Positions 7,021 through 63,818 of a stretch of DNA of 64,000 nt are shown here, piece after piece. Made by a program: the position numbers and the translations under genes. The notes beneath the pieces were generated by a model, which saw nothing but the letters and a program-made list of their open reading frames with translations, ran no database searches and was not told where the DNA came from. Every line of letters starts with the position of its first letter. The stretch's first letter is position 1. The DNA is from Clostridia bacterium. GTDB taxonomy: Bacteria; Bacillota; Clostridia; UMGS1810. The stretch lies in the NCBI GenBank assembly GCA_017481205.1, contig JAFUPN010000002.1, positions 1 to 64,000 on the forward strand, written 5' to 3'.

Positions 7021-7057
7021 AATGTACCTTTCTTGCTTTGTATTATTCTCTTTCGGC

Positions 7058-7996: not shown

Positions 7997-8016
7997 CAGA
8001 TGTCACTTCTTTTCCG

Positions 8017-27950: not shown

Positions 27951-28016
27951 TTTCGCAGAATGCTGATTATACACAACGGGGAGACCCGAAATTTACTTTT
28001 CAGGAGGACAAAAGAA

Positions 28017-36423: not shown

Positions 36424-38070
36424 CTAAGCAATGTTCTCTTTTTTTGCGTCTGTTTCTTCGTCTTGCAACAGATTACCTATAAATCTGTATCTTATGTCTA
36501 TCGACTGCTCCCACTTGCCATTGACCTTTTGACGGTCTGAAACAGTGATGCTTTCTATAAGCTCGCAGACAATAGCCCTTGTCAGTGTTTCAATGTTTGT
36601 GAAATCGCTGATAAGATTAAGCCATTCATTAACCTCGTCTGTCGCTGTGCTTATCTGTTCAAGTTCATCATGCAGTCTTGGGATTTGATTTTCAAGGTCG
36701 CTTTGTTCCTTTAAGAAATCTTCCATCATTGACTTAAACACTTCTTCGGGTAAATTTCCGCTACATTTATCAATATAAAGGTTTTTGATAGTAGTTTTGA
36801 TTACCGCAAGTCTGTTTTCTGCATTGGAAATTTGACCTCTTATAACCTTTGTTTCAGCCATTGCGTGCTTACTTTTCAATGTCAAAAGTTTGTTTGCAAT
36901 GGTTTCTTTTTCATTCTCCGCAATTATAGCATAGCGTCTAATATCGCTTAAAACAATTTCACAAAGATCATTTTCCTCAATATAATGAGTGCCGCAAGCA
37001 TTTGAACCATTATTGTTATAGCGACTGCAACGATAAAGACCTTTTTCTCCATTTGCAAGTTTCTTACGCATATATGCAAGAGGGGAATCGCAATCAGCAC
37101 ATCTTAAAATTCCGGCGAACATTCCTACAGTCTTTTCTTTGGTCTTTGCTACTCTGGAATTTGTTCTCATCCGACTATGTACCTTGTCCCAAAGTTCACG
37201 CTCTACGATAGGTTCGTGAGTGTTTTCGACCACAATCCAATTATCAGGACTTACCTGACGCATCTTCTTTGTTTTAAAAGATACTGTTTTTCGTTTTCCC
37301 TGAACCATATTGCCTATATAGACTTGATTGCGTAACAACTGCAACACCGTGGCACTGCCCCAGACATTCTTTTCCTCTGTAAGCGGATTAACTCTGCCCA
37401 TTTTTGCATAATGATAAAATCTTGGACTGTCAATATGCTCTTCGTTAAGTCTGTCAGCAATCTGTCTTGCAGTATCACCTGATGCAAATTCACTGAATAA
37501 TCTTTTGATTATCAATGCCGGTTCATCGTCTATAATAAGAATATGCTTATCCTCTGGCGATTTCTTGTAACCATAAGGTGCTTGACTTCCCATAAACATT
37601 CCTTGTTCAGCACTCTTACGCTTAACCTGACGCACCTTTTTTGATACCTGCTTTGGGTAAATTTCATTCAGCACGTGATGAAATGCAGTCATATCGTTAT
37701 CGTCATTGATGGTGTCTATACTGTCATTTATGGCGATATAACGGATGTCATTTTCAGGGAAGAACTCGTCGGTGTAGTAGCCTGCCTGAACATAGTTTCT
37801 GCCAAGTCTTGATAAGTCTTTTGTAATGATACAGTTGATTTTGCCGTTTAAGGCATCATCAATCATCCTTTTAAAACTCGGTCTTTCAAAATTTGTACCT
37901 GTCCAGCCGTCGTCAACATATTCTTCAACCAATTTCCAGCCCTTTTCAAGAACATAATCTTTAAGTAACTGCCTTTGATTGCTTATGCTCATGCTCTCCA
38001 AATGCCCGTTGTTATCGTCTTTTGATAGTCTTAAATAAATTCCTACATCGTATGTGTTATCTATATTCAT
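36424..38070 (-). CDS. Large serine recombinase
   Basis: Catalyses integration and excision of the island or part of it. The 548-residue protein has an N-terminal resolvase domain (GIYLRLSKDD with the catalytic serine near residue 15, KDLSRLGRNY near 100), a recombinase DNA-binding domain (about 165-280, PYGYKK ... GSATVLQLLRNQVYIGNMVQ), a zinc-ribbon (CADCDSPLAYM ... YRCSRYNNNGSNACGTHYI), and a coiled-coil C-terminal part (about 390-480). It points toward the tRNA and is the last gene of a minus-strand operon. Large serine recombinases usually prefer protein-coding or other targets, so its use of a tRNA end is not proven. Confidence 0.92.
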   Translation of the reverse strand: MNIDNTYDVGIYLRLSKDDNNGHLESMSISNQRQLLKDYVLEKGWKLVEEYVDDGWTGTNFERPSFKRMIDDALNGKINCIITKDLSRLGRNYVQAGYYTDEFFPENDIRYIAINDSIDTINDDNDMTAFHHVLNEIYPKQVSKKVRQVKRKSAEQGMFMGSQAPYGYKKSPEDKHILIIDDEPALIIKRLFSEFASGDTARQIADRLNEEHIDSPRFYHYAKMGRVNPLTEEKNVWGSATVLQLLRNQVYIGNMVQGKRKTVSFKTKKMRQVSPDNWIVVENTHEPIVERELWDKVHSRMRTNSRVAKTKEKTVGMFAGILRCADCDSPLAYMRKKLANGEKGLYRCSRYNNNGSNACGTHYIEENDLCEIVLSDIRRYAIIAENEKETIANKLLTLKSKHAMAETKVIRGQISNAENRLAVIKTTIKNLYIDKCSGNLPEEVFKSMMEDFLKEQSDLENQIPRLHDELEQISTATDEVNEWLNLISDFTNIETLTRAIVCELIESITVSDRQKVNGKWEQSIDIRYRFIGNLLQDEETDAKKENIA

Positions 38071-41108: not shown

Positions 41109-42005
41109 ATGAACTATTTATCTGTATCTCAAATGGCGAAAAAATGGAATATGTCCGAGCGTGGGGTTAGAAAATACTGTGCTGAGAATAAAATACCCGG
41201 AGCATTCTTGACGGGTAAAACTTGGAACATACCCGAAAATGCCGAAAAACCTGAAAGAATAAATAAAAAAAGCGATGAGCCGCAAAATCTTCTTGAAAGA
41301 TTAAGAACAGAGAAAAAATCTTCTCTCAAAGGCGGAATTTATCACAAAATACAGATTGAACTTACCTATAATTCAAATCATATTGAGGGTAGCAAATTAA
41401 CCCATGACCAGACAAGATATATTTTTGAAACTAATACTATTGGTGTGGAAAATGATGCTTTGAATGTTGATGATATTATAGAAACTGCAAATCATTTCAA
41501 GTGTATTGATATGATAATTGATAACGCAACATATAAGCTCACAGAAAAATTTATAAAAGAACTGCACTTTACTTTAAAGTCCGGCACTTCCGATTCAAGA
41601 AAAGATTGGTTTAATGTTGGGGAGTATAAAAAACTTCCGAATGAAGTTGGAGGAAAAGAAACTGCAAGTCCTGAAACTGTGGCACAAAAAATTAAAGAAC
41701 TTTTAAAATCGTATAATCAAAAGAATGAGCATACTTTGGAAGAAATAATAGATTTCCATTATCAGTTTGAAACTATACACGCATTTCAGGATGGCAATGG
41801 TCGTGTTGGCAGACTTATTATGTTTAAGGAATGTCTCAAAAATAACATTGTTCCATTTATAATTGATGATAGTCTGAAAATGTTCTATTACAGAGGTTTG
41901 TCTGAGTGGAACAACGAAAAAGGCTATTTATTTGATACCTGCCTATCGGCACAGGATAAGTTTAAAAAATATTTGGAGTATTTTAAAGTGCCGTATAATG
42001 ATTAG
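41109..42005 (+). CDS. Fic family protein with N-terminal HTH, copy 1
   Basis: Likely transfers AMP or another nucleotide moiety to a target protein. The 298-residue protein has an N-terminal excisionase/MerR-like HTH (YLSVSQMAKKWNMSERGVRKYC, then IPGAFLTGKTWNIPE, residues 1-45). The sequence NSNHIEG near 89-95 fits the (S/T)xxxE(G/N) inhibitory helix of class II Fic proteins. The catalytic motif is HAFQDGNGRVGR near 235, with all key residues. The canonical Pro of HPFxxGNGR is replaced by Ala. Downstream lies an AbiH-like fragment, which suggests a defence or toxin role. Nearly the same protein is encoded at 42608. Confidence 0.9.
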   Translation: MNYLSVSQMAKKWNMSERGVRKYCAENKIPGAFLTGKTWNIPENAEKPERINKKSDEPQNLLERLRTEKKSSLKGGIYHKIQIELTYNSNHIEGSKLTHDQTRYIFETNTIGVENDALNVDDIIETANHFKCIDMIIDNATYKLTEKFIKELHFTLKSGTSDSRKDWFNVGEYKKLPNEVGGKETASPETVAQKIKELLKSYNQKNEHTLEEIIDFHYQFETIHAFQDGNGRVGRLIMFKECLKNNIVPFIIDDSLKMFYYRGLSEWNNEKGYLFDTCLSAQDKFKKYLEYFKVPYND

Positions 42006-42513: not shown

Positions 42514-42607
42514 AAACTATTTATCGGCAAGTTATAGAGGAAATTGTTGTATTTTGTGCACTGTTCTTGCCGATGGCGGCGAAATATATTATTATGGAGG
42601 AGTGTTA

Positions 42608-43504
42608 ATGATGTATTTATCAGTTACCGATATAGCAAAAAAGTGGAATATGTCAGAACGCACTGTCAGAAATTATTGCGCTCAAAATAAAATACCAGGT
42701 GCCTTTTTGACTGGTAAGACCTGGAATATTCCTGAAAATGCAGAAAAACCTGAAAGAATAAATAAAAAAAGCGATGAACCGCAAAATCTTCTCGAAAGAC
42801 TTAGGATGGAGAAAAAGTCTTCCTTAAAAGGCGGAATTTATCACAAAATTCAAATAGAACTTACCTATAATTCAAATCATATTGAAGGTAGCACTCTAAC
42901 TCATGACCAGACAAAATATATTTTTGAAACCAATACTATCGGAGCGGAAAATGATGCCTTAAATGTTGACGATATTATAGAAACGGCAAATCATTTCAAA
43001 TGTATTGATATGATAATTGACAATGCAACATATAAGCTCACAGAAAAACTTATAAAAGAACTGCACTTTACTTTAAAGTCCGGCACATCAGATTCAAGGA
43101 AAGACTGGTTTAATGTAGGTGAATATAAAAAACTTCCTAATGAAGTTGGCGGAAAAGAAACTGCAAGTCCTGAAACTGTCGCACAAAAAATTAAGCACTT
43201 GTTAAAATCTTATAATCAAAAGAACGAGCATACTTTGGAAGAAATAATAGATTTCCATTATCAGTTTGAAACTATACACGCATTTCAAGACGGCAATGGT
43301 CGTGTAGGCAGACTGATAATGTTTAAGGAATGTCTGAAAAATAATATTGTTCCGTTTATTATTGATGACAGTCTTAAAATGTTCTATTACAGAGGATTAT
43401 CCGAATGGAACGACGAGAGAGGTTATTTACTTGACATCTGCCTGTCGGCACAGGATAAGTTTAAAAAGTATTTGGATTATTTTAAAGTGCCGTATATCGA
43501 ATAA
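42608..43504 (+). CDS. Fic family protein with N-terminal HTH, copy 2
   Basis: A 298-residue homologue of the Fic protein at 41109, with about 20 amino acid differences (about 93% identity by eye). Ten of these fall in the first 115 residues, eight of them in the HTH or the linker just after it. The inhibitory NSNHIEG and catalytic HAFQDGNGRVGR motifs are unchanged. Many synonymous differences show that this is not a very recent duplication. GGAGG lies 7 nt before ATG 42608. No AbiH-like gene follows; about 140 nt later comes the same right-end repeat as in segment 1. The changed HTH suggests a different DNA site or partner. Confidence 0.9.
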   Translation: MMYLSVTDIAKKWNMSERTVRNYCAQNKIPGAFLTGKTWNIPENAEKPERINKKSDEPQNLLERLRMEKKSSLKGGIYHKIQIELTYNSNHIEGSTLTHDQTKYIFETNTIGAENDALNVDDIIETANHFKCIDMIIDNATYKLTEKLIKELHFTLKSGTSDSRKDWFNVGEYKKLPNEVGGKETASPETVAQKIKHLLKSYNQKNEHTLEEIIDFHYQFETIHAFQDGNGRVGRLIMFKECLKNNIVPFIIDDSLKMFYYRGLSEWNDERGYLLDICLSAQDKFKKYLDYFKVPYIE

Positions 43505-50112: not shown

Positions 50113-50141
50113 TTGACAACCACTATATGTTGTGGTACAAT
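50113..50141 (+). promoter_or_regulatory. Promoter for pflB with internal inverted repeat
   Basis: TTGACA (50113-50118), 17-bp spacer, TACAAT (50136-50141). The spacer contains ACCAC ... GTGGT (50119-50136), which could be an operator. Confidence 0.75.
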
Positions 50142-50205
50142 TTTAGATAATGGTGATATATATCTTTTGACTGACGGAAAATTATGCAGAAAGGATGTTG
50201 TTAAT

Positions 50206-52434
50206 ATGGCAGAAGCTTGGAGAAGTTTTAAAACAGGTAAATGGAATACCGAAATCAATGTAAGAGATTTTATAGTGAATAACTACACTCCCTACGACGG
50301 TGATGAGGAATTTTTAGAGGGCCCCACACAGAATACCACCGATCTCTGGAACGAGGTTCTGGAGCTCTCAAAGCAGGAGAGAGCAGCAGGCGGTGTTCTT
50401 GATATGGACACAAAGGTTATTTCAACAATAACCTCCCATGGTGCAGGCTATATAGATAAGGAAAAGGAAAAAATCGTTGGTTTTCAGACAGATAAACCCT
50501 TTAAACGTGCACTTCAGCCCTACGGCGGTATAAGAATGGCGGTTAAGGCATGCAAGGATAATGGTTATGAGGTTGACCCAGAGATTGTGGACTTCTTCTC
50601 AACTCACAGAAAGACACATAATGCAGGTGTGTTTGACGTATACAACACAGAAATGAGAAAATGTCGTACAAACCATATTATAACAGGTCTTCCCGATGCA
50701 TACGGCAGAGGTCGTATTATCGGCGACTACAGAAGAGTTGCTCTTTACGGCATCGACAAGCTTATTGAGGATAAGCGCGTACAGAAGCATTTTGCCGGCA
50801 GAACCATGACTGCAGACAATATTAGAAATATTGAGGAAATTTCCGAGCAGATAAAAGCACTCCAGATGCTGGCTGAGCTGGCAAATATCTACGGATGTGA
50901 TATTACCAAGCCCGCAACCAATGTTCAGGAGGCAATACAGGCGCTTTATTTTGGTTATCTTGCCGCAGTTAAGGAACAGAACGGCGCAGCAATGAGCTTG
51001 GGAAGAACCTCCACCTTCCTTGATATATATGCAGAAAGAGACCTTAAGGAAGGCACCTTTACAGAAAGTGAAATCCAGGAATTTGTTGATCAGTTTATCA
51101 TGAAGCTCCGTCTGGTTAAGTTTGCAAGAACTCCCGAGTACAACCAGCTTTTTGCAGGTGACCCCACATGGGTTACAGAGTCCTTGGGCGGTGTTGGTAT
51201 CGACGGCAGACACATGGTTACCAAGATGACCTACAGATATCTTAATACTCTGGATAATATAGGTGCTGCTCCCGAGCCAAATCTGACAGTTCTTTGGTCT
51301 GTAAATCTTCCTCAGAACTTCAAGGAATACTGTGCAAAGATTTCTATCAGACACTCTGCTATCCAGTATGAAAACGACGATATGATGAGAATCAGTCATG
51401 GCGATGACTATGGTATCGCTTGCTGCGTATCCTCCATGAGAATCGGCAAGGAAATGCAGTTCTTCGGCGCAAGAGCAAACCTTGCAAAATGTCTGCTTTA
51501 TGCTATCAACGGCGGTGTTGACGAAGTAAGCGGCGATCAGGTAGGTCCCAAGTACAGAGCCTGCGAGGGTGAATACCTGGATTATGATGATGTTATTGAA
51601 AAATACTATGCAATGATGAAATGGCTTGCGGGTGTTTACGTAAATACTCTCAATGTTATTCACTATATGCATGACAAATATTGCTACGAGAGACTCCAGA
51701 TGGCACTCCACGACAAGGATGTCACCAGATGGTTTGCTACCGGTATTGCCGGAATGTCTGTTGTTGCAGACTCACTCTCTGCCATTAAGTATGCAAAGGT
51801 TAAACCTATCCGTAACGAGCAGGGCATAGCTGTTGATTTTGAAATTGAAGGAGATTTCCCGAAATACGGAAACGATGATGACAGAGTTGACCTTATTGCA
51901 AACGATGTGCTTAAGAAATTTATCGGATATCTCAGAGGCTTTAATGCATACCGTGATGGTATCATAACAACTTCGGTTCTTACCATTACCTCAAACGTAA
52001 CCTATGGTAAGAATACAGGTGCAACCCCTGACGGAAGAAAATTCGGCGAAGCCTTTGCTCCCGGTGCCAATCCAATGCACGGCAGAGACAAAAACGGTGC
52101 TGTTGCTTCTCTTGCATCAGTTGCAAAGCTTGACTTCAACTATGCTCAGGACGGTATCTCCAATACCTTCTCAATAGTGCCCGAAGCACTCGGCAAGGAT
52201 GATGAATCAAAGGTTTCAAACCTCATTGCCCTTCTCGACGGTTACAATCAGAAGATGGGTCACCACCTGAATGTAAACGTATTCAGCAAGGAGCTGCTCC
52301 TTGACGCTCAGAAGCACCCTGAAAACTATCCTCAGCTTACAATCCGTGTATCCGGCTATGCAGTTAACTTTATCAAGCTTACTAAGGCACAGCAGGATGA
52401 GGTTATATCGCGTACCTTCCACGAAAAAGTCTGA
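50206..52434 (+). CDS. pflB: Formate acetyltransferase (pyruvate formate-lyase)
   Basis: Glycyl-radical enzyme splitting pyruvate with CoA into acetyl-CoA and formate. The 742-residue protein has the catalytic Cys-Cys pair in [13 protein letters not shown] near 402-414 and the radical glycine in RVSGYAVNF near the C-terminus. Conserved PFL blocks such as [26 protein letters not shown] and [19 protein letters not shown]-type sequence are present. I use ATG 50206 with AAAGGATG upstream. The activase gene lies 484 nt downstream on the same strand, separated by two structured repeats. It indicates a fermentative anaerobe. Confidence 0.97.
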
Positions 52435-52865: not shown

Positions 52866-52918
52866 ATCCTTAATTAATTTCGGCGAAATTCAATTCATTA
52901 AAAATATTGGAGGTATAT

Positions 52919-53641
52919 ATGAAAGGTTATATTCATTCCTTAGAATCCTTCGGTGCGGTAGATGGTCCAGGAGTTCGCTATGTGGTGTTTTTTCAGGGCT
53001 GTCCCATGCGCTGCACATACTGCCATAATCCTGATACATGGGAATTTAATTCCGGGACTGAAACAGATACCGACGAAATTGTAGAAAAATTCATGCGAAA
53101 CCGTAGCTTTTATACCAGCGGCGGAGTCACGGCAACCGGCGGTGAGCCTATGGCACAGATTGATTTTCTCACCGAGCTTTTTGAAAAGCTTACGGAGCAA
53201 GGGATACATACCTGCCTGGATACCTCCGGCATTATGTTCAATCCTGAAAATACGGAGAAGGTTGACAGACTTCTTAAATCCACAAGCCTTGTAATGCTGG
53301 ATATCAAGCATATTGACGACAAATGTCACAGAGAGCTTACAGGACATTCAAACAAAAATATTTTAGAATTTGCAAAATATATTGATTCCAAAAACATCCC
53401 TTTGTGGATAAGGCATGTTATTGTACCGGGATTGACCGATACGGATGAGGAAAACAGACTTCTGGGAGAATTTCTCTCTGAATTTAATAATATCCAGAAA
53501 ATCGAAGCACTGCCATATCATTCTCTGGCAAAGCCAAAGTATGAAAATTTGGGTATGGACTATCCCATGAAGGACACTCCCGACTGCACCAAGGAAGCGG
53601 CAGCCAGAGCTAAAGAACGTATTGAAAATTATATAAAATAA
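52919..53641 (+). CDS. pflA: Pyruvate formate-lyase-activating enzyme
   Basis: Radical-SAM enzyme that installs the glycyl radical on PflB. The 240-residue protein has the GPGVRYVVFFQGCPMRC-type N-terminus with the CxxxCxxC cluster motif (CPMRCTYC) near 30-37, NPDTWE, GGVTATGGEP near 68-77, and DIKHIDD. GGAGG precedes ATG 52919. A terminator follows. Its distance from pflB, with a structured element between, suggests separately tuned expression. Confidence 0.95.
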   Translation: MKGYIHSLESFGAVDGPGVRYVVFFQGCPMRCTYCHNPDTWEFNSGTETDTDEIVEKFMRNRSFYTSGGVTATGGEPMAQIDFLTELFEKLTEQGIHTCLDTSGIMFNPENTEKVDRLLKSTSLVMLDIKHIDDKCHRELTGHSNKNILEFAKYIDSKNIPLWIRHVIVPGLTDTDEENRLLGEFLSEFNNIQKIEALPYHSLAKPKYENLGMDYPMKDTPDCTKEAAARAKERIENYIK

Positions 53642-53730: not shown

Positions 53731-55086
53731 TTATTTAAAATCTGCTACTAATCCATAGTCTGCGTATTCAAAAATTCTTGCATTTTTGTCGGGATTTATG
53801 GCAATTACGGTATCTGCTCCCTCTATTGCACAGGTGTGATGTACCGCACCGGAAATACCTATGGCAATATATATCTTCGGACTGACGGTTTTTCCTGTAA
53901 GCCCTACCTGACGGTCATAGGGGAGCTTTCCTGTGTCTACAAGTCCTCTTGAGGCTGCAAGCTCAGCATCAAGCTCATTGGCAAAAGATATAAGTCGGTC
54001 TGTATTATTAGCAATTCCCTTGCCTCCGGCAACTATTATATCAGAGCTCTCTGTCTTTGTTCTTACAGTTGCCATCTGAGGCATAGTCAGGCATTTTATC
54101 TTTGCATATATGTTTCCTCCCTGAGCGGGACGGTACATAATAAGCTTGCCTTCTTCGGCTTCAAGCTGTGTGCAGTCTGCACACAGTCCTGTGTTAAGAA
54201 TTGCCGCGGCTATGGGAGCGTTTTTTCTTCCCCATAAATCCGCATTCCAGAGTATCACCTCAGGCTTTTCTTCTATTGCTTTTTGTACAATAGTTCTGAT
54301 ATCAGAATTTTCTATCAAAACTACATTCTCTGCAATTTCCTTAGCTCTTTCTGCAGCTTCTTCGCCGACAGCCCATACAGATTTTAGCCTGTCTGTGTTT
54401 TCTATGTGTTTTTCCTCTGAAGGCTGTTTTTTGAGCAATTCTTCAATCAGCGGTTTTAGCTCTTGCTGTGTGATAAACCGGCAGTGACGTTTTCCCTGTT
54501 GGTTTTCAAAGGCTTGTATAACTCGTGTAGGGGAGCCCTGCAGACCACATTGCTCCGGCGGACATTTCAGCTCGTCGTTGGAGATAGTCTGTATCTCTCC
54601 CGGCTTGGAAAAGATGCTTGGAAACCTGAGTATATATCCCCGCTCCACAGTTACAAGTGCCGGCAACTGCATGCCCTGCTCTCCAAGACGTGTATCTGCA
54701 TATACACTGCTTTCGTCCGCTTTTACTTTAAGCGCATTGGTGATAAGGGGTATATCCAGCATTTGCGATATCATAGGACCTACCTGAGCTGTGTCTCCGT
54801 CTATGCTCTGTCTGCCGCAGAGTATTAAGTCATAGTCCATGGTCTTTATGGCTGCAGACAGAATTTTTGATGTAGCGAGGGTATCAGAGCCCGCAAAAGC
54901 TCTGTCGCTGATAAGAATAACCTTTGCTCCAAGTCTTGTCAGGGGGATAAGTGCATTTTTTGTGCTTTCGGGTCCCATTGACACAACGGTAACGTCCTTT
55001 GACAGCCGCAGTGCACATTCCAAAGCGGATTCGTCAAAGGGATTGACTTCACCTTTAATTATTTTTACACATACTAAAATTTTCAT
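53731..55086 (-). CDS. Electron transfer flavoprotein, fused beta-alpha subunits
   Basis: A single 451-residue chain combining EtfB and EtfA, normally two proteins. The EtfB part (about 1-230) has MKILVCVKIIKGE, GPESTKNAL, CGRQSIDGDTAQVGPM and the ETF-beta signature RLGEQGMQLPALVTVE. A linker near 235-275 leads to a shortened EtfA domain I (VWAVGEEAAERAKEIAENV) and the FAD domain (RPAQGGNIYAKIKCLTMPQMATVRT, then QVGLTGKTVSPKIYIAIGISGAVHH and INPDKNARIFEYADYGLVAD). The FAD-stacking QTGKTV is LTGKTV here. ATG 55086 is chosen because the longer frame overlaps the FGGY gene. Last gene of the sugar operon; it probably accepts electrons from the GlcD-like oxidase. Confidence 0.88.
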   Translation of the reverse strand: MKILVCVKIIKGEVNPFDESALECALRLSKDVTVVSMGPESTKNALIPLTRLGAKVILISDRAFAGSDTLATSKILSAAIKTMDYDLILCGRQSIDGDTAQVGPMISQMLDIPLITNALKVKADESSVYADTRLGEQGMQLPALVTVERGYILRFPSIFSKPGEIQTISNDELKCPPEQCGLQGSPTRVIQAFENQQGKRHCRFITQQELKPLIEELLKKQPSEEKHIENTDRLKSVWAVGEEAAERAKEIAENVVLIENSDIRTIVQKAIEEKPEVILWNADLWGRKNAPIAAAILNTGLCADCTQLEAEEGKLIMYRPAQGGNIYAKIKCLTMPQMATVRTKTESSDIIVAGGKGIANNTDRLISFANELDAELAASRGLVDTGKLPYDRQVGLTGKTVSPKIYIAIGISGAVHHTCAIEGADTVIAINPDKNARIFEYADYGLVADFK

Positions 55087-55096
55087 GGCTGTTGTC

Positions 55097-56572
55097 TCAA
55101 AAATCCTCGTTATTATATATAGGCTCCAGAGCCTTCTGTATGGCTTTGTATTTCCTGAAAAGCTTGCTGTATGCAGCGGTGTTTTCTTCATTCGGAAGTG
55201 TTTCTGATATCACTTCATTGCATAGAGCCACAGCCCGGGCAGGACTTTCAAAAATTCCTGTTGCTATACCAGCAAGCATAGCACTGCCAAAGGATGAATC
55301 TGCATGCTTCATCTCAAAGAGCTTTATTCCCAGTGCATCGGAAATCATCTGCCGCCAAAGGGGGCTTTTGCTTCCGCCTCCGATGATTACAGCGCTGTCA
55401 TTGTGAGGGATATCTAGCTTATCCAGAGCGGTCTTGCAGTCCAGCATACTCATGGTAACTCCCTCCAGCACCGCTCTTGCGAAATGAGCTTTTGTGTGGG
55501 ATGACCTTACTCCGACAAAATCTGCGCACAGATTTGGATTTGCATATGGAGTGAGCTCTCCGTTGAGGTACGGATGAAACACCATACCGTCACAGCCTAT
55601 AGGTATTGAAGCCGCCTTTTTGTTAAGCTCTTCGTAATCCTCACCAAAGGTATCGCGGAACCAGCGGTAGGATGCTGCACAGGATTTTGTGGCAGTGCCG
55701 GGATAAAACAGCCCCGGCACTATGTGAGAATAGTTTATAAGAGTGATATCCGGATAGGCTTTGTCTGTAATAACGCATATTCTGCCTGCTGTTGCAAGCT
55801 TGAGAGTCATCTGTCCTTTGGATACCGCTCCCGAGGCAAATACCTCCATAACAGTGTCTGTGGTTCCACAGAGCACCGGTGTACCTTCTGTGAGACCGGT
55901 CAGCTCAGCTGCAGACCTTGTGATATTGCCTGCTATATCTGTGGGAGCTTTAATCTCCGGCATCATATCTGTGGGGATATCCAGTATGCCGCACAGCTCT
56001 CTACTCCAGCTCATTGTGTTTATATCAAACATCATGGAGCCCTCTGCCTCGATATAATCTGTCACATAGTCGCCTGTAAGGCAGTGACGTACATAATCCT
56101 TTGCAAACAGGATTTTTTTGACTTTTGACCAGTTTTCCGGTTCGTTGTTTTTTATCCACATAAGCTCCGGCAGTGACCAGATGGTATCAGCTTTGTGCAG
56201 AACCTGTCTGTCTATGATATCAGAAAAATTCTCGCGCAGATATTGCACCTCAGCAGTACTGCGTGTATCTGTCCAGTATATTGCCGGGCGGATTATATTG
56301 AAATTCTCATCCATGATTACGGCAGTATGGGTAGCCGCATCAAGCGACAGTGCCGCTATGTTTTCGGGAGAGACTCCGCTTTTTTCCAATACTGATTTTA
56401 TATTGATACAGGTTGCTTTAACCCAATCCAGGGGGGCCTGCTCTGCATATCCGGGGCATGGGTAGCTTGTAGGATATTCATAAGCAGCGGTAGCACATAT
56501 TTCGCCTTTTTCGCTGAGCAGTGTTGCCTTGGAGGCTCCGCCTCCGAAATCTATTCCCAGAAGATATTTCAT
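55097..56572 (-). CDS. FGGY family carbohydrate kinase (xylulokinase-like)
   Basis: ATP-dependent phosphorylation of a pentulose, hexulose or polyol. The 491-residue protein has the FGGY N-lobe start YLLGIDFGGGASKATL, YPTSYPCPGYAEQAPLDWVKA near 36-56, the LSLDAATHTAV catalytic-region segment, WTDTRS, CGTTDTVMEVF near 238, and the C-lobe VIIGGGSKSPLWRQMISDALG. Substrate class within FGGY (xylulose, ribulose, erythritol and so on) is not readable. It lies between DUF4867 and the ETF fusion with a 10-nt gap to the latter. Confidence 0.9.
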   Translation of the reverse strand: MKYLLGIDFGGGASKATLLSEKGEICATAAYEYPTSYPCPGYAEQAPLDWVKATCINIKSVLEKSGVSPENIAALSLDAATHTAVIMDENFNIIRPAIYWTDTRSTAEVQYLRENFSDIIDRQVLHKADTIWSLPELMWIKNNEPENWSKVKKILFAKDYVRHCLTGDYVTDYIEAEGSMMFDINTMSWSRELCGILDIPTDMMPEIKAPTDIAGNITRSAAELTGLTEGTPVLCGTTDTVMEVFASGAVSKGQMTLKLATAGRICVITDKAYPDITLINYSHIVPGLFYPGTATKSCAASYRWFRDTFGEDYEELNKKAASIPIGCDGMVFHPYLNGELTPYANPNLCADFVGVRSSHTKAHFARAVLEGVTMSMLDCKTALDKLDIPHNDSAVIIGGGSKSPLWRQMISDALGIKLFEMKHADSSFGSAMLAGIATGIFESPARAVALCNEVISETLPNEENTAAYSKLFRKYKAIQKALEPIYNNEDF

Positions 56573-56590
56573 ATTTTCTGCCTCGCTTTA

Positions 56591-57199
56591 TCAGAATTTG
56601 TAGTTTTCGCCGTATATACCGCCCACACAGCCCTTTTTCAGGAGATTTTCACATTCTTCGTGAGCTAAAAGCCATTTGTTTTTTGCTGTTATAAGCTTAT
56701 TGCCGCCGTTATCGTCTATTGGAGTGTTTGTACCTTCGGGGAGCACAACAACGCATCTGAAGCCGTCTTTTCCTGTATGTATGGGGCAGTAATGCAGTGT
56801 TGTGGAATACATCTCTACAGCTTCTCCCGCTTTCATAAGAAATGCCTTTACATTGGCAGAGTCATATCTGTTGTTCTCCACATCCTGAAGTCTGCCAAGC
56901 AGCAAAATCATATCTGTAACAGCAATATTTACCTCGGAGTTCTTGTGCCATTCCAGAGCATTCATAGTGTCATTATAGCCCCAGCAGTAGCCCATCTGTA
57001 TGGGCATTGAGCCGAACACCTCAAGCTTCATTTGCGAGGCAATTGCCAGTGGTTCAAATTCCGCCTGAGAGGGCACATATTTTGAGCCTTCCTCGGGCAT
57101 GGGGATTTTTTCGGCTGTTTCGATTATTTCAGCTGTATCGAAGTTTAAAACAGCTCCGTATTCTTCAAATTCCTTATCTGTCACTCTGTATATATGCAT
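56591..57199 (-). CDS. DUF4867 family protein
   Basis: A 202-residue cytosolic protein of the DUF4867 type (cupin-like): FEEYGAVLNFDTAEIIE, QMGYCWGYNDTMNALEWHKNSEVN near 68-91, YSTTLHYCPIH, and FRCVVVLPEGTN. The histidine and glutamate in ALEWHKNSE and the LHYCPIH segment look like metal ligands. AAGGAG precedes ATG 57199. In clostridial genomes the family tends to occur in sugar or inositol catabolic clusters, as here beside iolB. An isomerase or epimerase role is plausible but not shown. Confidence 0.8.
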   Translation of the reverse strand: MHIYRVTDKEFEEYGAVLNFDTAEIIETAEKIPMPEEGSKYVPSQAEFEPLAIASQMKLEVFGSMPIQMGYCWGYNDTMNALEWHKNSEVNIAVTDMILLLGRLQDVENNRYDSANVKAFLMKAGEAVEMYSTTLHYCPIHTGKDGFRCVVVLPEGTNTPIDDNGGNKLITAKNKWLLAHEECENLLKKGCVGGIYGENYKF

Positions 57200-57230
57200 G
57201 GTGGGTCTCCTTTGTATTATACTCTTTCGG

Positions 57231-58019
57231 CTAAGCGTTCAACCATTTGTGCTCTTCGTCGGTTGTCATATAGAAGCCTCTGTCCTCGCCTGCCATTATC
57301 CACAGATAGTAGTTGTCATATCCCGGTGCAGTATGGAAGGGGTGGTAGCCTCTGGGGATTTCTACAAAGTCGCCTGATTTAACAGTGTATGTTTCATCAA
57401 TGTCGCCTTCCATTGTGTATACCTTCTGTATACCGAAGCCCTGGGGCTTTTTGAATTCATAGTAGTATATCTCTTCTGTTTCTGCCTCGGTGGGCATATT
57501 GTCGTCATCATGCTTGTGGGGAGGATAGCTTGCCCATTGACCACCCTTTACAAAAGCTTCGCCTATGTAGAGCATGGTTGAGTTTACTCTTTCGTCAAGG
57601 ATAAAGTGGGCTTCTCTTTCCCAGCCGGGCTTGCCCAGGTTTTTGATAACAACATCCTCAGGATTTATAATTGCAGGCTCATAGTCTGCTTTAGAGGGAG
57701 ATTTGCACACTGCTATGGCAACCTCGCCCACACCTGCTACCTTAAATGGCTTGTTTGCAGGGATATAAATGCAGGTTGCCGCCCCGTCAAATACGTTTTC
57801 TCTTTTTCCTGCTTCCTTAAATTCAAAGCCCTCACCGCTTACGGTACATTTACCGCCCAGGATTACGAGAGCGTATTCCTTGTCAGCCTCTCTGTATGAT
57901 TTTACATCGCCGTCGGCAAGACGTAGCATATCCATTTCAACCTTTTTGCAGGTACTGTTTGCCTTGGTGATGATTTCGGATTTTCCGTACTTTTTATTCC
58001 AGTGTTTCTTCAAATTCAT
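57231..58019 (-). CDS. iolB: 5-deoxy-glucuronate isomerase (IolB)
   Basis: Cupin-fold isomerase that in the myo-inositol pathway turns 5-deoxy-glucuronate into 5-dehydro-2-deoxy-gluconate. The 262-residue protein has both cupin halves, with the C-terminal metal site PPHKHDDDN ... EEIYYYEFKKPQGFG near 168-195 and the HPFHTAPGYDNYYLW segment. I use ATG 58019 because AAGGAG lies 10 nt away; a GTG at 58028 is too close to it. It overlaps the kinase gene by 26 nt. The rest of the inositol pathway (iolG, iolE, iolD) is absent from the window, so the true substrate may be a related sugar acid. Confidence 0.88.
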   Translation of the reverse strand: MNLKKHWNKKYGKSEIITKANSTCKKVEMDMLRLADGDVKSYREADKEYALVILGGKCTVSGEGFEFKEAGKRENVFDGAATCIYIPANKPFKVAGVGEVAIAVCKSPSKADYEPAIINPEDVVIKNLGKPGWEREAHFILDERVNSTMLYIGEAFVKGGQWASYPPHKHDDDNMPTEAETEEIYYYEFKKPQGFGIQKVYTMEGDIDETYTVKSGDFVEIPRGYHPFHTAPGYDNYYLWIMAGEDRGFYMTTDEEHKWLNA

Positions 58020-58923
58020 TATAGCCACGCTCCTTTAAAAATTTTATTACCTCATCCGATGTGGGTGCCGCCGCTCTTGCTCCGGTTTTGGTGCATTTGA
58101 GGGCTGACACCGCCGAGGAAAATATACATGCTTTATTATAATCCATTTTTTGTGTAATTGCAAATGCAAATGCCCCGTGAAATACATCGCCGGCCCCGTT
58201 TGAATCCACACCATCCACAGAGAATGCTTTATATTTGTTTATGCTCTGTCCGTCATAGATAATCCCGCCTTCCTTTCCGCAGGTTATTACAAGGATTTCA
58301 GGTGAGTATCTGCCGAAAAGAGCTTTTGCCGCTTCTTCTGTATTTGTACAGCCGGTGTGACCGAGTGAAAATTCCTCCGAGGGAATCAGAATGTCTGCAT
58401 AGGGCAGGAGCTTTTCCACTCCTTCATAGAGACCGCCTGCATCATAGAGAATCTTTGTTCCGTTTGCCTTTGCTATCTCTGCCGCCTCAAGTGCGGTGGT
58501 CATACTGTTTCCGTCTATCATCAGGATATCTGCATTTTTTATTGCATTTATCTGTTCTTCATCCAATGGTTCTTCGGGTACATCGCCCTTATGAAAAACG
58601 CAGGTTCTGGATGTACTGTCCTCTGCAAGCCATATGTATGAAGAAAAAGAGGTATAGCCGGGCTTTATCCGTACATGGTCTGCAGATACTCCGTATTTTG
58701 TAAGGTCATTTACAAGAAATTGCCCGGCACTGTCATCTGTGAGATTTCCTATATACGCACAGTCTGCTCCAAGCTTTGATGCTGCACAAAGTCCTGTTGC
58801 ACAGGGACCGCCTCCGCTCATCATAATTTCTGAGGCGCGCATTTTTGTGTCTTCGGCAGGATAGTGGGGGAGTGTTATCAGAGTGTCACATACATTTGCA
58901 CCTATTCCGACTATTTTGCTCAT
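57994..58923 (-). CDS. PfkB family carbohydrate kinase (IolC-like)
   Basis: Ribokinase-fold sugar kinase, 309 residues from ATG 58923 (AAAGGATTGG upstream). Features: IGANVCDTLITLPHYP, a GGPCATGLCAASKLGADCAYIG sugar-binding region near 40-60, LMIDGNSM, and the C-terminal signature GVDSNGAGDVFHGAFAFA with the catalytic Asp near residue 250. In context with IolB and an aldolase it may do the IolC step, 5-dehydro-2-deoxy-gluconate phosphorylation. Other ketose or sugar-acid substrates remain possible. Overlaps iolB by 26 nt. Confidence 0.87.
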   Translation of the reverse strand: MSKIVGIGANVCDTLITLPHYPAEDTKMRASEIMMSGGGPCATGLCAASKLGADCAYIGNLTDDSAGQFLVNDLTKYGVSADHVRIKPGYTSFSSYIWLAEDSTSRTCVFHKGDVPEEPLDEEQINAIKNADILMIDGNSMTTALEAAEIAKANGTKILYDAGGLYEGVEKLLPYADILIPSEEFSLGHTGCTNTEEAAKALFGRYSPEILVITCGKEGGIIYDGQSINKYKAFSVDGVDSNGAGDVFHGAFAFAITQKMDYNKACIFSSAVSALKCTKTGARAAAPTSDEVIKFLKERGYNEFEETLE

Positions 58924-58960
58924 ATTTATAACCAATCCTTTCTGACCATACTGCCTGAAT

Positions 58961-59797
58961 TTATTCAACCTTATTATCGGCTCCCAGAAGCTTGATTTTT
59001 TCTATTGCAAAGTCTTTTACACTTGCCACAGCATCTTTCATAAACAGGTCGATACCTACATTTTCTCTTGAGCTTTCAAATACTTTGTCAAGGAATGCAT
59101 AGCACAGGTCTGTGCCGAAGTTGATTTTTCTGATGCCGGCTTTTATTGCGGCTTTGATTTCCTCATCGGGTACACCGCTTCCTCCGTGGAGCACCAGTGC
59201 AGCATCAACAGCTTTGTGGATTTCTGCGATTCTGTCTATGGCAAGCTTAGGTGCTTTTTTGTATCTGCCGTGTGCTGTTCCCACCATTATTGCGAGAGCT
59301 GCAACACCTGTTTCTTCGACATATTTAACTGCATCTTCAACAGTGGTGTAGTCGGTGCTTGCTTCATCGCCGTTGCTTGCCGCCCCGATATGACCCAGCT
59401 CACCTTCTATTTTTATACCTATTGCGTTGCACAGGTCTGCAATTCTTTTTGTTTCGGCAACGTTTTCTTCAAGAGATAGGGTTGATTTGTCAATCATAAT
59501 ACCCGTAGCTCCGCTGCGAACTGCTCTCATTACTTCAACCTCACTTGCTCCGTGGTCGAGATGGAAGCATACGGGAACGGTTGCTTTTTCTGCTGCAGCT
59601 ATAATAATAGGTGCGCAGTAATAGCCTTCGCCGTTGGTAAAGAGTCTGGAGTAGTTCTGAAGTATAATCGGCGCTCTCATTTCTTCTGCTGCCTTAATTA
59701 CACCCATAACTGTTTCCATATTGTATACATTGAATGCCGGAATGGCAAATTCACCTTTTTCGGCAATATCGAGAATTTCTTTAAAGCTTACAAGCAT
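58961..59797 (-). CDS. Class II aldolase (FbaA/IolJ-like)
   Basis: Zinc-dependent aldolase cleaving a ketose phosphate. The 278-residue protein has the class II metal and substrate motifs: PAFNVYNMETV, VCFHLDHGAS near 76-85, EGELGHIG, GTAHGRYK, LVLHGGSGVPDEE and KINFGTDLCYAF. In this neighbourhood an IolJ-type cleavage (6-phospho-5-dehydro-2-deoxy-gluconate to DHAP and malonate semialdehyde) is the closest known reaction; tagatose- or fructose-bisphosphate cleavage is the alternative. GGAGG lies 9 nt before ATG 59797, which overlaps the Fe-S gene stop by 10 nt. Confidence 0.88.
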   Translation of the reverse strand: MLVSFKEILDIAEKGEFAIPAFNVYNMETVMGVIKAAEEMRAPIILQNYSRLFTNGEGYYCAPIIIAAAEKATVPVCFHLDHGASEVEVMRAVRSGATGIMIDKSTLSLEENVAETKRIADLCNAIGIKIEGELGHIGAASNGDEASTDYTTVEDAVKYVEETGVAALAIMVGTAHGRYKKAPKLAIDRIAEIHKAVDAALVLHGGSGVPDEEIKAAIKAGIRKINFGTDLCYAFLDKVFESSRENVGIDLFMKDAVASVKDFAIEKIKLLGADNKVE

Positions 59798-60858
59798 TTT
59801 GCTACAACCTCCTCAAGCTTGAGTAATTCCATACCCTCGGGTTTTGTTTTGCTGAGCAGTTCATATTCTGCTGTGCTGGCTGTTACCAGAATTTTTGTGT
59901 CTGCATTTTTTGCATTGAACCATCTTTTTTCTGCAACCATTTCCATTACCTGAGGCATATATTCGTTCATTATGAGATTTCCTGCAAGAACTGTATATTC
60001 ACGGTTAAGAAGCATTTCATTTACCTCTCCGCAGGCAGAGAGAATATCGCGCATAGGTTGAGTTTCCTCTATGTCACGTGCAAGGAGCGGGCTGTCCTGG
60101 GGAGTGAGCACCATATCTCCTTTTTTTACCTTAAGTGCACCGGATTTGATAAGCTCTGCTACAAATGCAGTAAAGGTTACAACCTCAGCCTTAAGGACAA
60201 TACCCCATTCCTTGTATTCTCTGAGCATTACCTTTGCATCGGCAGGGTCATAGCATATAACCCTTTTGTAGCTGCTGAGCACATTTGCACAGTTTTCCAT
60301 AACTGCTTTTGTTTCAGCAGCGGCACCTATAAGAAAATCCATAGAATATCCGCTGGAGGGTTCGTTTTCAAGTATGGCAAATTCAATACCGGCTTTTTTG
60401 AGGATTTCTATCGCATATTTTGCGCATCCTTTTGCACGGGTATCTTCACCAAGGAAAAACAGTGTATCGCTGTTTTCAAAAACGGGTATATTTGGGTTCT
60501 TGTCTGCGCCGTATATATTGCCCTTTTCCTGAAGATTATTTATCATTGTCAGTACATAGTCGGGGAGTATGCCGTCCAGAGCGGCGCCGAGACGTGCCTC
60601 CTTGGTAAACATAACCGGATCCCAGCCTGTCACACAGTCTGTCATACAGCCGCCGCAGAGGGAGCATTCGTATACATTGCTTACTATATCGTCAGAATAT
60701 TCAACAGCGCCTCTTTCTACCATAGAAAGTCCCAGTGCTCTTGCACGGGCAGTGTTTCTCTCAAGACCTGTTGCATTGCCGATGGGGCACACATGGTGGC
60801 ACATCCAACAGAAACGGCATGAATTTATATGTTCGGTTGATTTTTGTGAAAATTGCAT
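59788..60858 (-). CDS. Iron-sulfur oxidoreductase subunit (GlcF/GlpC-like)
   Basis: Likely electron-transfer partner of the adjacent flavin oxidase. The 356-residue protein has two N-terminal cluster motifs, CRFCWMCHHVCP (residues 14-25) and CSLCGGCMTDCV (near 64-75), consistent with two [4Fe-4S] clusters. The C-terminal CCG-like region is degenerate: typical CCG motifs of GlcF/heterodisulfide reductases are not seen. GGAGGT precedes ATG 60858, 15 nt after the oxidase gene. Confidence 0.85.
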   Translation of the reverse strand: MQFSQKSTEHINSCRFCWMCHHVCPIGNATGLERNTARARALGLSMVERGAVEYSDDIVSNVYECSLCGGCMTDCVTGWDPVMFTKEARLGAALDGILPDYVLTMINNLQEKGNIYGADKNPNIPVFENSDTLFFLGEDTRAKGCAKYAIEILKKAGIEFAILENEPSSGYSMDFLIGAAAETKAVMENCANVLSSYKRVICYDPADAKVMLREYKEWGIVLKAEVVTFTAFVAELIKSGALKVKKGDMVLTPQDSPLLARDIEETQPMRDILSACGEVNEMLLNREYTVLAGNLIMNEYMPQVMEMVAEKRWFNAKNADTKILVTASTAEYELLSKTKPEGMELLKLEEVVAKCL

Positions 60859-60873
60859 TATAATTACCTCCTC

Positions 60874-62298
60874 TTACAGACCCAACTTAAAGGGATTCAT
60901 GATTCCGTTGGGGTCAAGCTGTTTTTTGATACCTTCAAATACCTGCATAGCAGGACCGTACTGTTCCTTCATAAGTCTGCCCAGCTTGATACCTACACCA
61001 TGGTGGTCGTTTACAACACCGCCGTTGGCAAGAGCTGTTCTTACACCGCAGTTCCATATTGCCTGATGGAGTCTGAATGCCTCGTGAGGATCCTGAGGAA
61101 CATCCTTGCCGTCTACAATGAATCTGTCGTAAATCATACAGCCCCATTCATACCAGTGGGAGAAGTGTGCTATATATTTTGCCTGGGGGAAGTTGGTTTC
61201 GATAGCCTCTTTCATTGCCCAGTATATCTTTTCTATTTTGTCATAGGGTGCGATGGTATCCATTGTACCGAAGCACTGAGGAATATCCATCATATGACCG
61301 GGATAGAAGAAGGTGATTTTTTCCTTCCACCATTTTTCACCGTATTCGCTTCCAAGGTCTTCTGCACCGTATTTTCCAAAGGTTTCCAGAAGGATTTTTT
61401 CCTCAAGGTCAACCATTTCAGCAACACCCTCGATAGCAATATTCATAAATGCGCCTTTTTTCTCTACACCTACAATTTTTTTGATAAGTGTTGAGGTTTC
61501 GGCTTCGTCGTACATTCTCATTACGGAGGGTTTGAATTTCTGCAGGAGCTCTCTGCCTGCGTTAAAAGCATCTGTTATATTGTGGAACAGGAAGCCTCTG
61601 AACTTTCTTGATTCAGGCTGCTCGTATATTCTCATCTGAGCCTTTGTAATAACACCTAAGGTTCCCTCAGAGCCTATGAAAATCTGGTTAAGGTCGGGAC
61701 CCGCAGCATGTTTGGGAGCAGGAGAGGTTTCTATAATATCACCGTTTGGAAGAACAACCTCCATCTGGAGTACCATGTCGTCGATTTTTCCGTATTTTGT
61801 AGAGGAAACGCCTATACCTCTGTGTGCCAGGAAGCCGCCAACTGTTGAGCAGGTTAGAGATGAGGGATAGTGCATTGTAGCATAGCCTCTTTCGTTTGCA
61901 GCCCATTCAATGTGCTTGTATATGGAGCCGGTACCGCACTCTATGTACATTCCCTGTTCGTTTACATCGTAAATCTTGTTCATTCTCTTGGTGTCAAGAA
62001 CAATACCGCCGCATACGGGTATTGCACCACCCTGAGTACCGCCGCCGGCGCCCCATGTGGTTACGGGGATTTTATAATAGTTTGCAATCTTGAGTACTGC
62101 AGAAACCTCCTTTGCATCCTTGGGAGCAACGATAAAGTCGCCCTCGGGCATTCTCAGTCCTCTGTCTGCCCACATTCTGGAGAGCCAGAAATAGTCAACA
62201 CTGTGTGATATTTTGTCGATGGTTCTTGTAGAGCAGTTTTCTCTGCCTACAGCATCTTCAAGCTCTGTTGCAATTACGTCAAACAAAAAATCTGTCAT
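60874..62298 (-). CDS. FAD-binding oxidase, GlcD/LctD-like
   Basis: Predicted to oxidise a 2-hydroxy acid or similar substrate. The 474-residue protein has the PCMH-type FAD domain (FIVAPKDAKEVSAVLKIAN near 55, VTTWGAGGGTQGGAIP near 80-95, YPSSLTCSTVGGFLAHRGIG near 145-165, GSEGTLGVITKAQMRI) and the C-terminal FAD-oxidase domain ending VVNDHHGVGIKLG ... LDPNGIMNPFKLGL. Together with the Fe-S protein and the fused ETF it recalls the ETF-linked lactate dehydrogenases of anaerobes. AAGGAA precedes ATG 62298. Confidence 0.9.
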   Translation of the reverse strand: MTDFLFDVIATELEDAVGRENCSTRTIDKISHSVDYFWLSRMWADRGLRMPEGDFIVAPKDAKEVSAVLKIANYYKIPVTTWGAGGGTQGGAIPVCGGIVLDTKRMNKIYDVNEQGMYIECGTGSIYKHIEWAANERGYATMHYPSSLTCSTVGGFLAHRGIGVSSTKYGKIDDMVLQMEVVLPNGDIIETSPAPKHAAGPDLNQIFIGSEGTLGVITKAQMRIYEQPESRKFRGFLFHNITDAFNAGRELLQKFKPSVMRMYDEAETSTLIKKIVGVEKKGAFMNIAIEGVAEMVDLEEKILLETFGKYGAEDLGSEYGEKWWKEKITFFYPGHMMDIPQCFGTMDTIAPYDKIEKIYWAMKEAIETNFPQAKYIAHFSHWYEWGCMIYDRFIVDGKDVPQDPHEAFRLHQAIWNCGVRTALANGGVVNDHHGVGIKLGRLMKEQYGPAMQVFEGIKKQLDPNGIMNPFKLGL

Positions 62299-62337
62299 TT
62301 TTTATATTCCTTCTTTCTATATAGTATACAAAATAAA

Positions 62338-63738
62338 TTATTCTACGGGATCAAAAGTAATACCGGGAACGAATTTGCAGAACTCCTCCAGTATATCCGA
62401 GTAGTCTCCGAATATCTCGCTCATATGGTGAATATAGGGACCTTCTATCATTTTGCGTTCAACCTTTGCCCAGTCCTTGAATTCAGCCCACATATATGTG
62501 CCGAAGGTAAGAGGACCGTCAGTTGTTTTGAATTTGCCTCCAAGGAGAGTATAGCTTCCCGCATCCCCCTGAAAACGTGCGATGGTATATTCGCCGTCCT
62601 TTGCCTTAAAGCTGGGCTTTGTATTAAAAAGCTTTGCCTTGACATTTTCGTCCTTTACCGAGTAGGGGAAGGGGCCGCAGTGCCACAGAAGCTCTGCGTT
62701 TTTGTTTTCGGGATGTCTTACGGTAAATTCGCCGAAGGTGGGAGCTGCTTTTCCGCGGGCGGCACACATAAGCAGTGCATTGGTGATTGCTCCGTGAACA
62801 TCGGATTCGCAGGTTACTATGTATCCCATATCGTAGAGTATGCTCATGGCGAGACACGGGTTTGCCCCAAAGGCAATGGGCATGGATGTCCAGCATTCGC
62901 TTGCCAGTACATCGGCACCGGTATCCTCGAATATTTCCTTGTACACGTGAACAAAGTTCATCATCTTTGCAAGGAGAGTGTCGTCAAGACCTGCAGTGTC
63001 ATATCTTTCCTTGAGCCATGCTACTTCCTTAGCAAGCTCATCCTGCTTTTCTTCAAAGCTTTTTTGGAATTTATCTTCAACAACCGACATATTTACATTG
63101 TTGAGGTTGATACCGAATTTTTCTGTAAGCTCAAGCTCGTTGTACATAACGCTCTTGAAGGGTGAAAGACGTGTGCCCACCATTGTAACCCGGAGATTTT
63201 TGAAATTTTTAATCATTGTCACAACGGACAAAAACTTTTTGAGTCCCCGGGAAAAAGCTTCGCTTTCAACAGGGCAGTTTTCTATGTATGAGAAGGGCAC
63301 CTTGTAGCGTCTCAGCTGCTTGCTTATGGCAAACAAACCGCACTGAGCGTCGGTATAGCGCTGACCGTTTTCCTCAAAGACCATATCCTGAGGCCCCCAG
63401 AGCAGCACAGGCAGACCCATCTTGCGGGCAATCTGACCGCATACCTCTTCGTTGCCGAAGTTGCAGTTGATAATGAATATTGCATCTGCTTGTTCTTTTC
63501 TGAGATATTCACACACGGTATCGCAGTCGGAATTTTTGTATACCACTCCAAGCTCATTGAGCCATTCAAGGTCACAAAATTCGGTTATGTCATCCTGAAA
63601 GTTATTTTTGATATAATCCACAACCTTATTTTTGCTTTCTACACCCTTTGCAGGTTCAAATATACCTTTTCGTGTAGAAAAATCAAATAAATCGCGTACA
63701 TCGGGCACAAGTCCTATTTTGATTTTGTAATTAAGCAT
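62338..63738 (-). CDS. L-fucose/L-arabinose isomerase family protein
   Basis: Predicted metal-dependent aldose-ketose isomerase (COG2407-like), 466 residues. Visible family features are the N-terminal Rossmann-like half (ADAIFIINCNFGNEEVCGQIARKMGLPVLLWGPQD in family terms, residues ~85-120), ASECWTSMP near 283, CESDVHGAITNALLM near 312, and a C-terminal GPYIHHMSEI. These supply the Glu, Asp and His expected as metal ligands. AGAGGTG precedes ATG 63738. First gene of the operon, expressed from 63790-63818. The aldose is unknown. Confidence 0.85.
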   Translation of the reverse strand: MLNYKIKIGLVPDVRDLFDFSTRKGIFEPAKGVESKNKVVDYIKNNFQDDITEFCDLEWLNELGVVYKNSDCDTVCEYLRKEQADAIFIINCNFGNEEVCGQIARKMGLPVLLWGPQDMVFEENGQRYTDAQCGLFAISKQLRRYKVPFSYIENCPVESEAFSRGLKKFLSVVTMIKNFKNLRVTMVGTRLSPFKSVMYNELELTEKFGINLNNVNMSVVEDKFQKSFEEKQDELAKEVAWLKERYDTAGLDDTLLAKMMNFVHVYKEIFEDTGADVLASECWTSMPIAFGANPCLAMSILYDMGYIVTCESDVHGAITNALLMCAARGKAAPTFGEFTVRHPENKNAELLWHCGPFPYSVKDENVKAKLFNTKPSFKAKDGEYTIARFQGDAGSYTLLGGKFKTTDGPLTFGTYMWAEFKDWAKVERKMIEGPYIHHMSEIFGDYSDILEEFCKFVPGITFDPVE

Positions 63739-63789: not shown

Positions 63790-63818
63790 ATTGTATCATA
63801 AAAAGAAAATAATTTCAA
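63790..63818 (-). promoter_or_regulatory. Promoter of the sugar-ETF operon
   Basis: Minus strand: TTGAAA (63818-63813), 17-bp spacer, TACAAT (63795-63790), 52 nt upstream of the isomerase start. Confidence 0.8.

Follow-up and report, generated by a model that had tools for sequence, protein, structure and literature searches.

A conserved operon of gut Clostridia that joins an AGPS-like flavoprotein and a fused ETF to enzymes of a putative sugar or sugar-acid route

Which compound is consumed by an operon that encodes two kinases, two types of isomerase and an aldolase together with a flavoprotein, an Fe-S protein and an ETF? Such an operon occupies the minus strand at one end of a 64,000 nt stretch of a contig from a Clostridia bacterium (hereafter the window). 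All nine open reading frames are intact and follow each other with gaps of at most 39 nt or with short overlaps (Table 1). The families assigned in an earlier note on this DNA were recovered by profile searches, and its proposal of a single transcript is likely to be right. A promoter-like site lies ∼50 nt 5′ of the first start codon of the operon. The ETF gene probably starts at the ATG at 55086 rather than at 55191, and the IOLB gene likely starts at the ATG at 58019. In the window no transporter specific to the operon was found adjoining it. A pyruvate formate-lyase-like gene (50113-52434) and the gene of its activating enzyme (52907-53641) are convergent with the 3′ end of the operon.

Table 1. 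Coordinates of the operon genes and of the promoter-like site in the window.
Feature	Position	Strand	Remarks
ISO, aldose-ketose isomerase, 466 aa	62338..63738	-	L-arabinose-isomerase fold (predicted), distant SftI relative
FAD, VAO/PCMH-type flavoprotein dehydrogenase, 474 aa	60874..62298	-	PF01565 (FAD_binding_4) + PF02913 (FAD-oxidase_C); AGPS-like active site
FES, ferredoxin-type protein	59788..60858	-	Fer4_8; two 4Fe-4S motifs
ALD, class II ketose-(bis)phosphate aldolase, DHAP-type	58961..59797	-	PF01116, TIGR00167
PFK, PfkB-family sugar kinase	57994..58923	-	PF00294
IOLB, KduI/IolB-type cupin isomerase	57231..58028	-	above TIGR04378 cut-off
DUF4867 cupin, SftX/SqvB family	56591..57199	-	PF16161, 257 bits
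FGGY carbohydrate kinase, xylulokinase-like	55097..56572	-	TIGR01312 380.7 bits
ETF, single-chain EtfB-EtfA fusion, 451 aa	53731..55086	-	PF01012 (ETF domain) + PF00766 (ETF_alpha)
Promoter-like site TTGAAA-17-TACAAT, extended -10	63790..63818	-	consensus match only

A first search with DUF4867 against 147 relatives showed that the same operon is present in other families. Scanning with the oxidase, we retrieved the 80 best-scoring named loci, which all come from uncultured MAGs, mostly of rumen or hindgut Clostridia; identities within this set are biased upward because the loci are best-scoring matches. Downstream genes were counted where 8.5 kb or more of sequence follows FAD (47 loci). FES, FGGY and IOLB were present in all 47, ALD and PFK in 46 and ETF in 44, as compared to 32/47 for ISO and 25/47 for DUF4867. 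Thus, the core consists of the seven genes FAD, FES, ALD, PFK, IOLB, FGGY and ETF, with ISO and DUF4867 as accessory genes. The neighbourhood comparison suggested in the earlier note revealed an identical gene order across dozens of genomes, and since synonymous sites are saturated between them the clustering is not due to chance. Both the cluster and its wide conservation are therefore well supported. A divergent RpiR regulator of the sugar type was seen in 32 of the 66 loci with upstream sequence. In a class-level sample of 391 Clostridia-class genomes, which was not picked by score, 28 (∼7%) had an oxidase match, 26 of them at 450 bits or more (the window's own counted) and two being distant relatives near 245 bits; most matches exceeded ∼1028 bits and few were intermediate. 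A carbon source that is possibly common among ruminant gut bacteria may thus be unassigned. Two oxidase copies on separate contigs were seen in three cases (L082/L083, L090/L120 and G061 C40/C50), reflecting either duplication or a binning artefact, and one complete operon (L133, JAUNSU010000005.1) lies on a contig labelled Planctomycetia that may be mis-binned or have been transferred.

FAD was initially described as a GlcD-like oxidase. This is only partly right, as its nearest relatives in the PDB, by sequence as well as by predicted fold, are AGPS, with the D-lactate dehydrogenases ranking behind. Against the GlcD equivalog, with a cut-off of 568, it scores 198 bits. FAD has the AGPS fold and conserves the H-x-S-H-x-Y and HHG positions of the AGPS active site: H378, S380, H381, Y383, H432 and H433 are invariant in 28 diverse members, even at 30–35% identity. 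Unlike AGPS, it is accompanied by Fe-S and ETF partners, which makes a dehydrogenase role likelier than alkyl exchange; with such partners, alkyl-acyl exchange on acyl-DHAP would not be expected. The HxGDGN motif of the D-2-hydroxyacid dehydrogenases (LDHD/GlcD/LctD) is absent, and HFSHWYEWG is found at the position of HVGDGN in mouse LDHD. Together with the AGPS-like active site, this weakens the initial suggestion that a 2-hydroxyacid such as glycolate or lactate is oxidised.

FAD is also far more constrained than the rest of the operon. It is 84–97% identical across families, and in loci with all seven core genes its mean pairwise identity is 0.89, compared to 0.53–0.67 for the others. The median dN relative to the window is 0.092 for FAD and 0.33–0.52 for the other eight genes, while all nine genes are close to saturation at synonymous sites, so that FAD evolves ∼4–5 times more slowly than its operon partners. 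It is more conserved than RecA: identity to the window's FAD is 97% in G004, 96% in G001 and G074, 94% in G126 and 89% in G015, and RecA from the same genomes is 61–80% identical to the window's RecA, with 66–80% where FAD has 89–97%. Recent horizontal transfer was rejected as the source of the FAD identity because third-codon identity is 50–62% and pS is ∼0.74, near the values of the neighbouring genes. Our guess is that the constraint is due to a multi-protein assembly.

Of the putative redox partners, FES retains both 4Fe-4S Cys motifs in 71 orthologues. ETF lacks ∼20 residues near the EtfB N-terminus. Bifurcating ETFs invariably have the glycine that is Gly123 in Acidaminococcus fermentans EtfB (PMC12630350), and the aligned Gly97 of ETF is invariant in 46 of 46 orthologues. 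This glycine strengthens the earlier suggestion of electron confurcation, which we regard as plausible from the sequence. The closest known arrangement is Ldh-Etf (LctBCD) of Acetobacterium woodii and related lactate clusters, which likewise combines a VAO-type flavoprotein with an ETF carrying the bifurcating-type glycine. The present operon differs from it in the AGPS-like active site, the extra Fe-S protein, the fused and shortened ETF and the sugar enzymes.

The putative isomerases, DUF4867 and the aldolase retain catalytic or metal motifs as well. ISO gave no match in a Pfam search, and hhalign with single AraA or FucI sequences gave poor scores. Its AF2 model (pLDDT 92) matches L-arabinose isomerase in Foldseek (TM 0.83, E 6e-25), and the AraA metal ligands, which we take to be E306, E333, H350 and H450 in E. 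coli numbering, align with E311, E337, H353 and H438 of ISO, all invariant in 31 orthologues. By fold and ligands, ISO thus appears to be an enzyme of the L-arabinose/L-fucose isomerase superfamily with the L-arabinose-isomerase fold; the profile alignment score is weak. In DUF4867 the ExHxxxE + His metal site, described for SqvB (PMC11968277), is invariant in 29 orthologues, in keeping with a PF16161 protein with two His and two Glu ligands. IOLB conserves its PPHKHD and GYH motifs in 59 orthologues. ALD scores 242 bits against TIGR00167 (cut-off 215.6) and conserves the motifs HLDHG, GE.GH.G, aHG.Y, LHGGsG and N..Td.

Further clues to the substrate come from variant loci. One of them (L152) carries a TRAP DctP system inside the operon along with an Fe-ADH of the glycerol/glycolaldehyde type and an IolB of 185 bits, below the TIGR04378 cut-off. 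AEC-type carriers were found inside or beside the operon in L108 and L041 by Pfam and, judged by their similarity to the L108 carrier, in L115 and L138. These acid transporters, which occur in a minority of loci and outside the window, favour an acidic substrate or product; among the loci examined, no transporter or glycosidase was consistently linked to the operon. An Ldh_2-family gene follows ETF in four loci. In L044 a related PFK-ISO-ALD-DUF4867 block shares one gene run with an aldehyde dehydrogenase, a glycerate 2-kinase and an enolase paralogue, which suggests glyceraldehyde as the aldolase product there; KDPG aldolase, Ldh_2-like, NagA-like and NagB-like genes are found in the same run. 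A minority of loci have NagA/NagB-like genes within the operon, and in the operon variant at L048 such genes flank a GKRP-like SIS-domain protein (6834-8528). The long gene run made up of L212 (7303-14673) and L044 (2185-10328; G057:C15), which encodes Gfo/Idh, NagA-like, NagB-like, Ldh_2-like, KDPG aldolase, SDR, AKR, glycerate 2-kinase, enolase paralogue, ALDH, PfkB, isomerase, aldolase and DUF4867 proteins, seems to represent a further undescribed pathway for a sugar acid.

As originally proposed, the gene content is most naturally read as a route for a sugar or sugar acid that includes cleavage by an aldolase. We put at about an even chance that the operon encodes a catabolic route, for a sugar or sugar acid of an unusual kind, in which ETF-linked oxidation, isomerisation, phosphorylation and retro-aldol cleavage yield DHAP; the substrate class, the step order and the electron acceptors are inferred. 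FAD, together with FES and ETF, would oxidise the substrate at a secondary alcohol (or lactol) and hand the electrons on to ETF, with confurcation being probable. Aldose and ketose forms of this oxidised intermediate would be interconverted by the IolB-type cupin, both kinases (PfkB and FGGY) would phosphorylate the intermediate, and the class II aldolase would then release DHAP and a short aldehyde. The accessory ISO and DUF4867, the latter as ring-opener or mutarotase, may channel an accompanying aldose into the pool of ketoses. We favour this explanation because the seven-gene core is kept together with its catalytic and metal motifs and the ETF glycine, and because of the divergent RpiR, the acid transporters and Fe-ADH of the variants, the Ldh_2 genes and the L044 block. 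Against it, the two kinases and the two types of isomerase may reflect a pair of routes running in parallel rather than a single line, and we found no characterised dehydrogenase with exactly this kind of AGPS-like active site. ETF is shortened in its EtfB N-terminal region, and a single residue is a thin basis for a bifurcating ETF. More tentatively, and with rather low confidence, we suggest that in FAD-FES-ETF an AGPS-like flavoprotein may form the basis of a new type of confurcating sugar dehydrogenase. It would catalyse the entry step of an undescribed catabolic pathway of gut Clostridia, and an obligate multi-enzyme assembly would account for the constraint on FAD. An AGPS-like flavoprotein that is unusually conserved and tied to an ETF could serve to test ideas on flavin-based energy conservation in sugar metabolism. 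No match to the gene combination of the operon turned up in literature searches.

Several of the enzymes resemble those of sulfoglycolysis (sulfo-SFT and sulfo-EMP2, with SftI and SftX/SqvB). The best PDB relative of PFK is the sulfofructose kinase YihV (102 bits), that of ALD is YdjI, ISO is a distant relative of SftI and DUF4867, which gains a new gene neighbourhood here, belongs to the SftX/SqvB family. In contrast to sulfoglycolysis, the operon lacks a sulfoquinovosidase, a sulfolactaldehyde reductase and a transaldolase, and ISO reaches 117 bits against NF048012 (SftI) with a cut-off of 700. The likeness would fit a uronate version of the pathway, in which IOLB (with ISO) converts a hexuronate to a keto-uronate, PfkB phosphorylates C1, ALD yields DHAP and tartronate semialdehyde, and the acid so formed is then the substrate of FAD-FES-ETF. 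The acid transporters of the variants agree with this scheme. We nevertheless consider it unlikely, as the operon has neither a tartronate semialdehyde reductase nor uronate enzymes and the similarity scores are distant. GH67 α-glucuronidase was found in 0 of 23 operon-bearing genomes (2 of 27 others), which also leaves 4-O-methylglucuronate from xylan, released via GH67, unsupported as the substrate.

A pentose route is somewhat less probable again. ISO and DUF4867 would generate xylulose, which is either converted to xylulose-5-P by FGGY or split via PfkB and ALD into DHAP and glycolaldehyde, with FAD-FES-ETF oxidising glycolate as the earlier note suggested. An operon of Clostridium saccharobutylicum combines xylB, DUF4867 and a FucI-like isomerase, and its xylB is needed for growth on xylose (PMC6158908). 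Its isomerase, DUF4867 and FGGY kinase are of the same broad families as those described here. The sequences are probably distant, as other DUF4867-FGGY loci are ∼22% and 30% identical, and the present operon adds the oxidase, Fe-S protein, ETF, IolB, PfkB and aldolase. FGGY scores just above the TIGR01312 XylB cut-off of 380.25 bits, but the MHG of E. coli XylB is replaced by ATHT, which is invariant in 49 orthologues. The glycolaldehyde-reductase-like Fe-ADH of L152 would suit a pentose; the missing hydroxyacid dehydrogenase motif in FAD would not. Moreover, ISO shares only ∼22% identity with the isomerases that accompany other DUF4867-FGGY pairs and is missing in 15 of the 47 loci, and the scheme leaves IolB without a role.

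IOLB itself passes the TIGR04378 equivalog cut-off (245.9 bits, cut-off 205), which raises the question of inositol. The operon shares with the lower half of myo-inositol catabolism (IolB-IolC-IolJ) an IolB-type isomerase, a PfkB kinase and a class II aldolase with DHAP as the expected product; it adds FAD-FES-ETF and FGGY, and its cluster has no IolG. PFK was rejected as an IolC, scoring 97 bits against TIGR04382 with a cut-off of 300. An IolCatGC is defined by at least three of iolB, iolC, iolD and iolE within 10 kb (PMC9430895), of which IolB alone passes its cut-off here. The contig (C5) ends at 66217 with no inositol genes beyond 64000; methylthiotransferase-like and HAD-like genes, their families read from the sequence, lie in that part. 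No IolD above the cut-off was found in the 23 operon-bearing genomes, an absence that extends to 16 genomes with a completeness of 90% or more and a contamination of 5% or less, and no IolE above the cut-off was found in the window's genome, a MAG of 71% completeness. Judged from genome content, and within the limits of draft MAGs, the canonical inositol route is thus excluded, and the earlier reading that this is not the standard inositol set holds. A cyclitol or inosose route that enters at IolB and uses substitutes for IolG/E/D would agree with the IOLB score and with the Gfo/Idh and TIM-barrel (AP_endonuc_2) neighbours in L151 (similar in L193 by eye), but is very unlikely given the missing IolD and IolE, the distance of PFK from IolC and a cluster without malonate-semialdehyde dehydrogenase. 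Separate from the operon, a KduI paralogue (C18:10603) neighbours a KduD-like gene. In L004 (G000:C18:1-20000) a KduI-family protein with an N-terminal extension of ∼280 aa adjoins a KduD-like dehydrogenase and ABC permeases, probably for pectin or uronate breakdown.

Least probable of all is that FAD-FES-ETF is a general redox unit that just happens to be co-transcribed with the genes of one or two ordinary sugar routes, as might be read from distant FAD-FES pairs without sugar genes, some beside glycerol-kinase-like genes; in the orthologous group, however, the sugar genes are almost never lost (46–47 of 47 loci).

Elsewhere in the window, a near-identical tandem pair of Fic/DOC-like genes (41109-42005 and 42554-43504, plus strand) lies a few kb from a serine recombinase gene (36424-38070) and resembles a mobile or recently duplicated segment. 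An SLH-like surface protein with long Glu/Thr-rich repeats is encoded at 27960-29126, with a Cys/Phe-rich antisense ORF.
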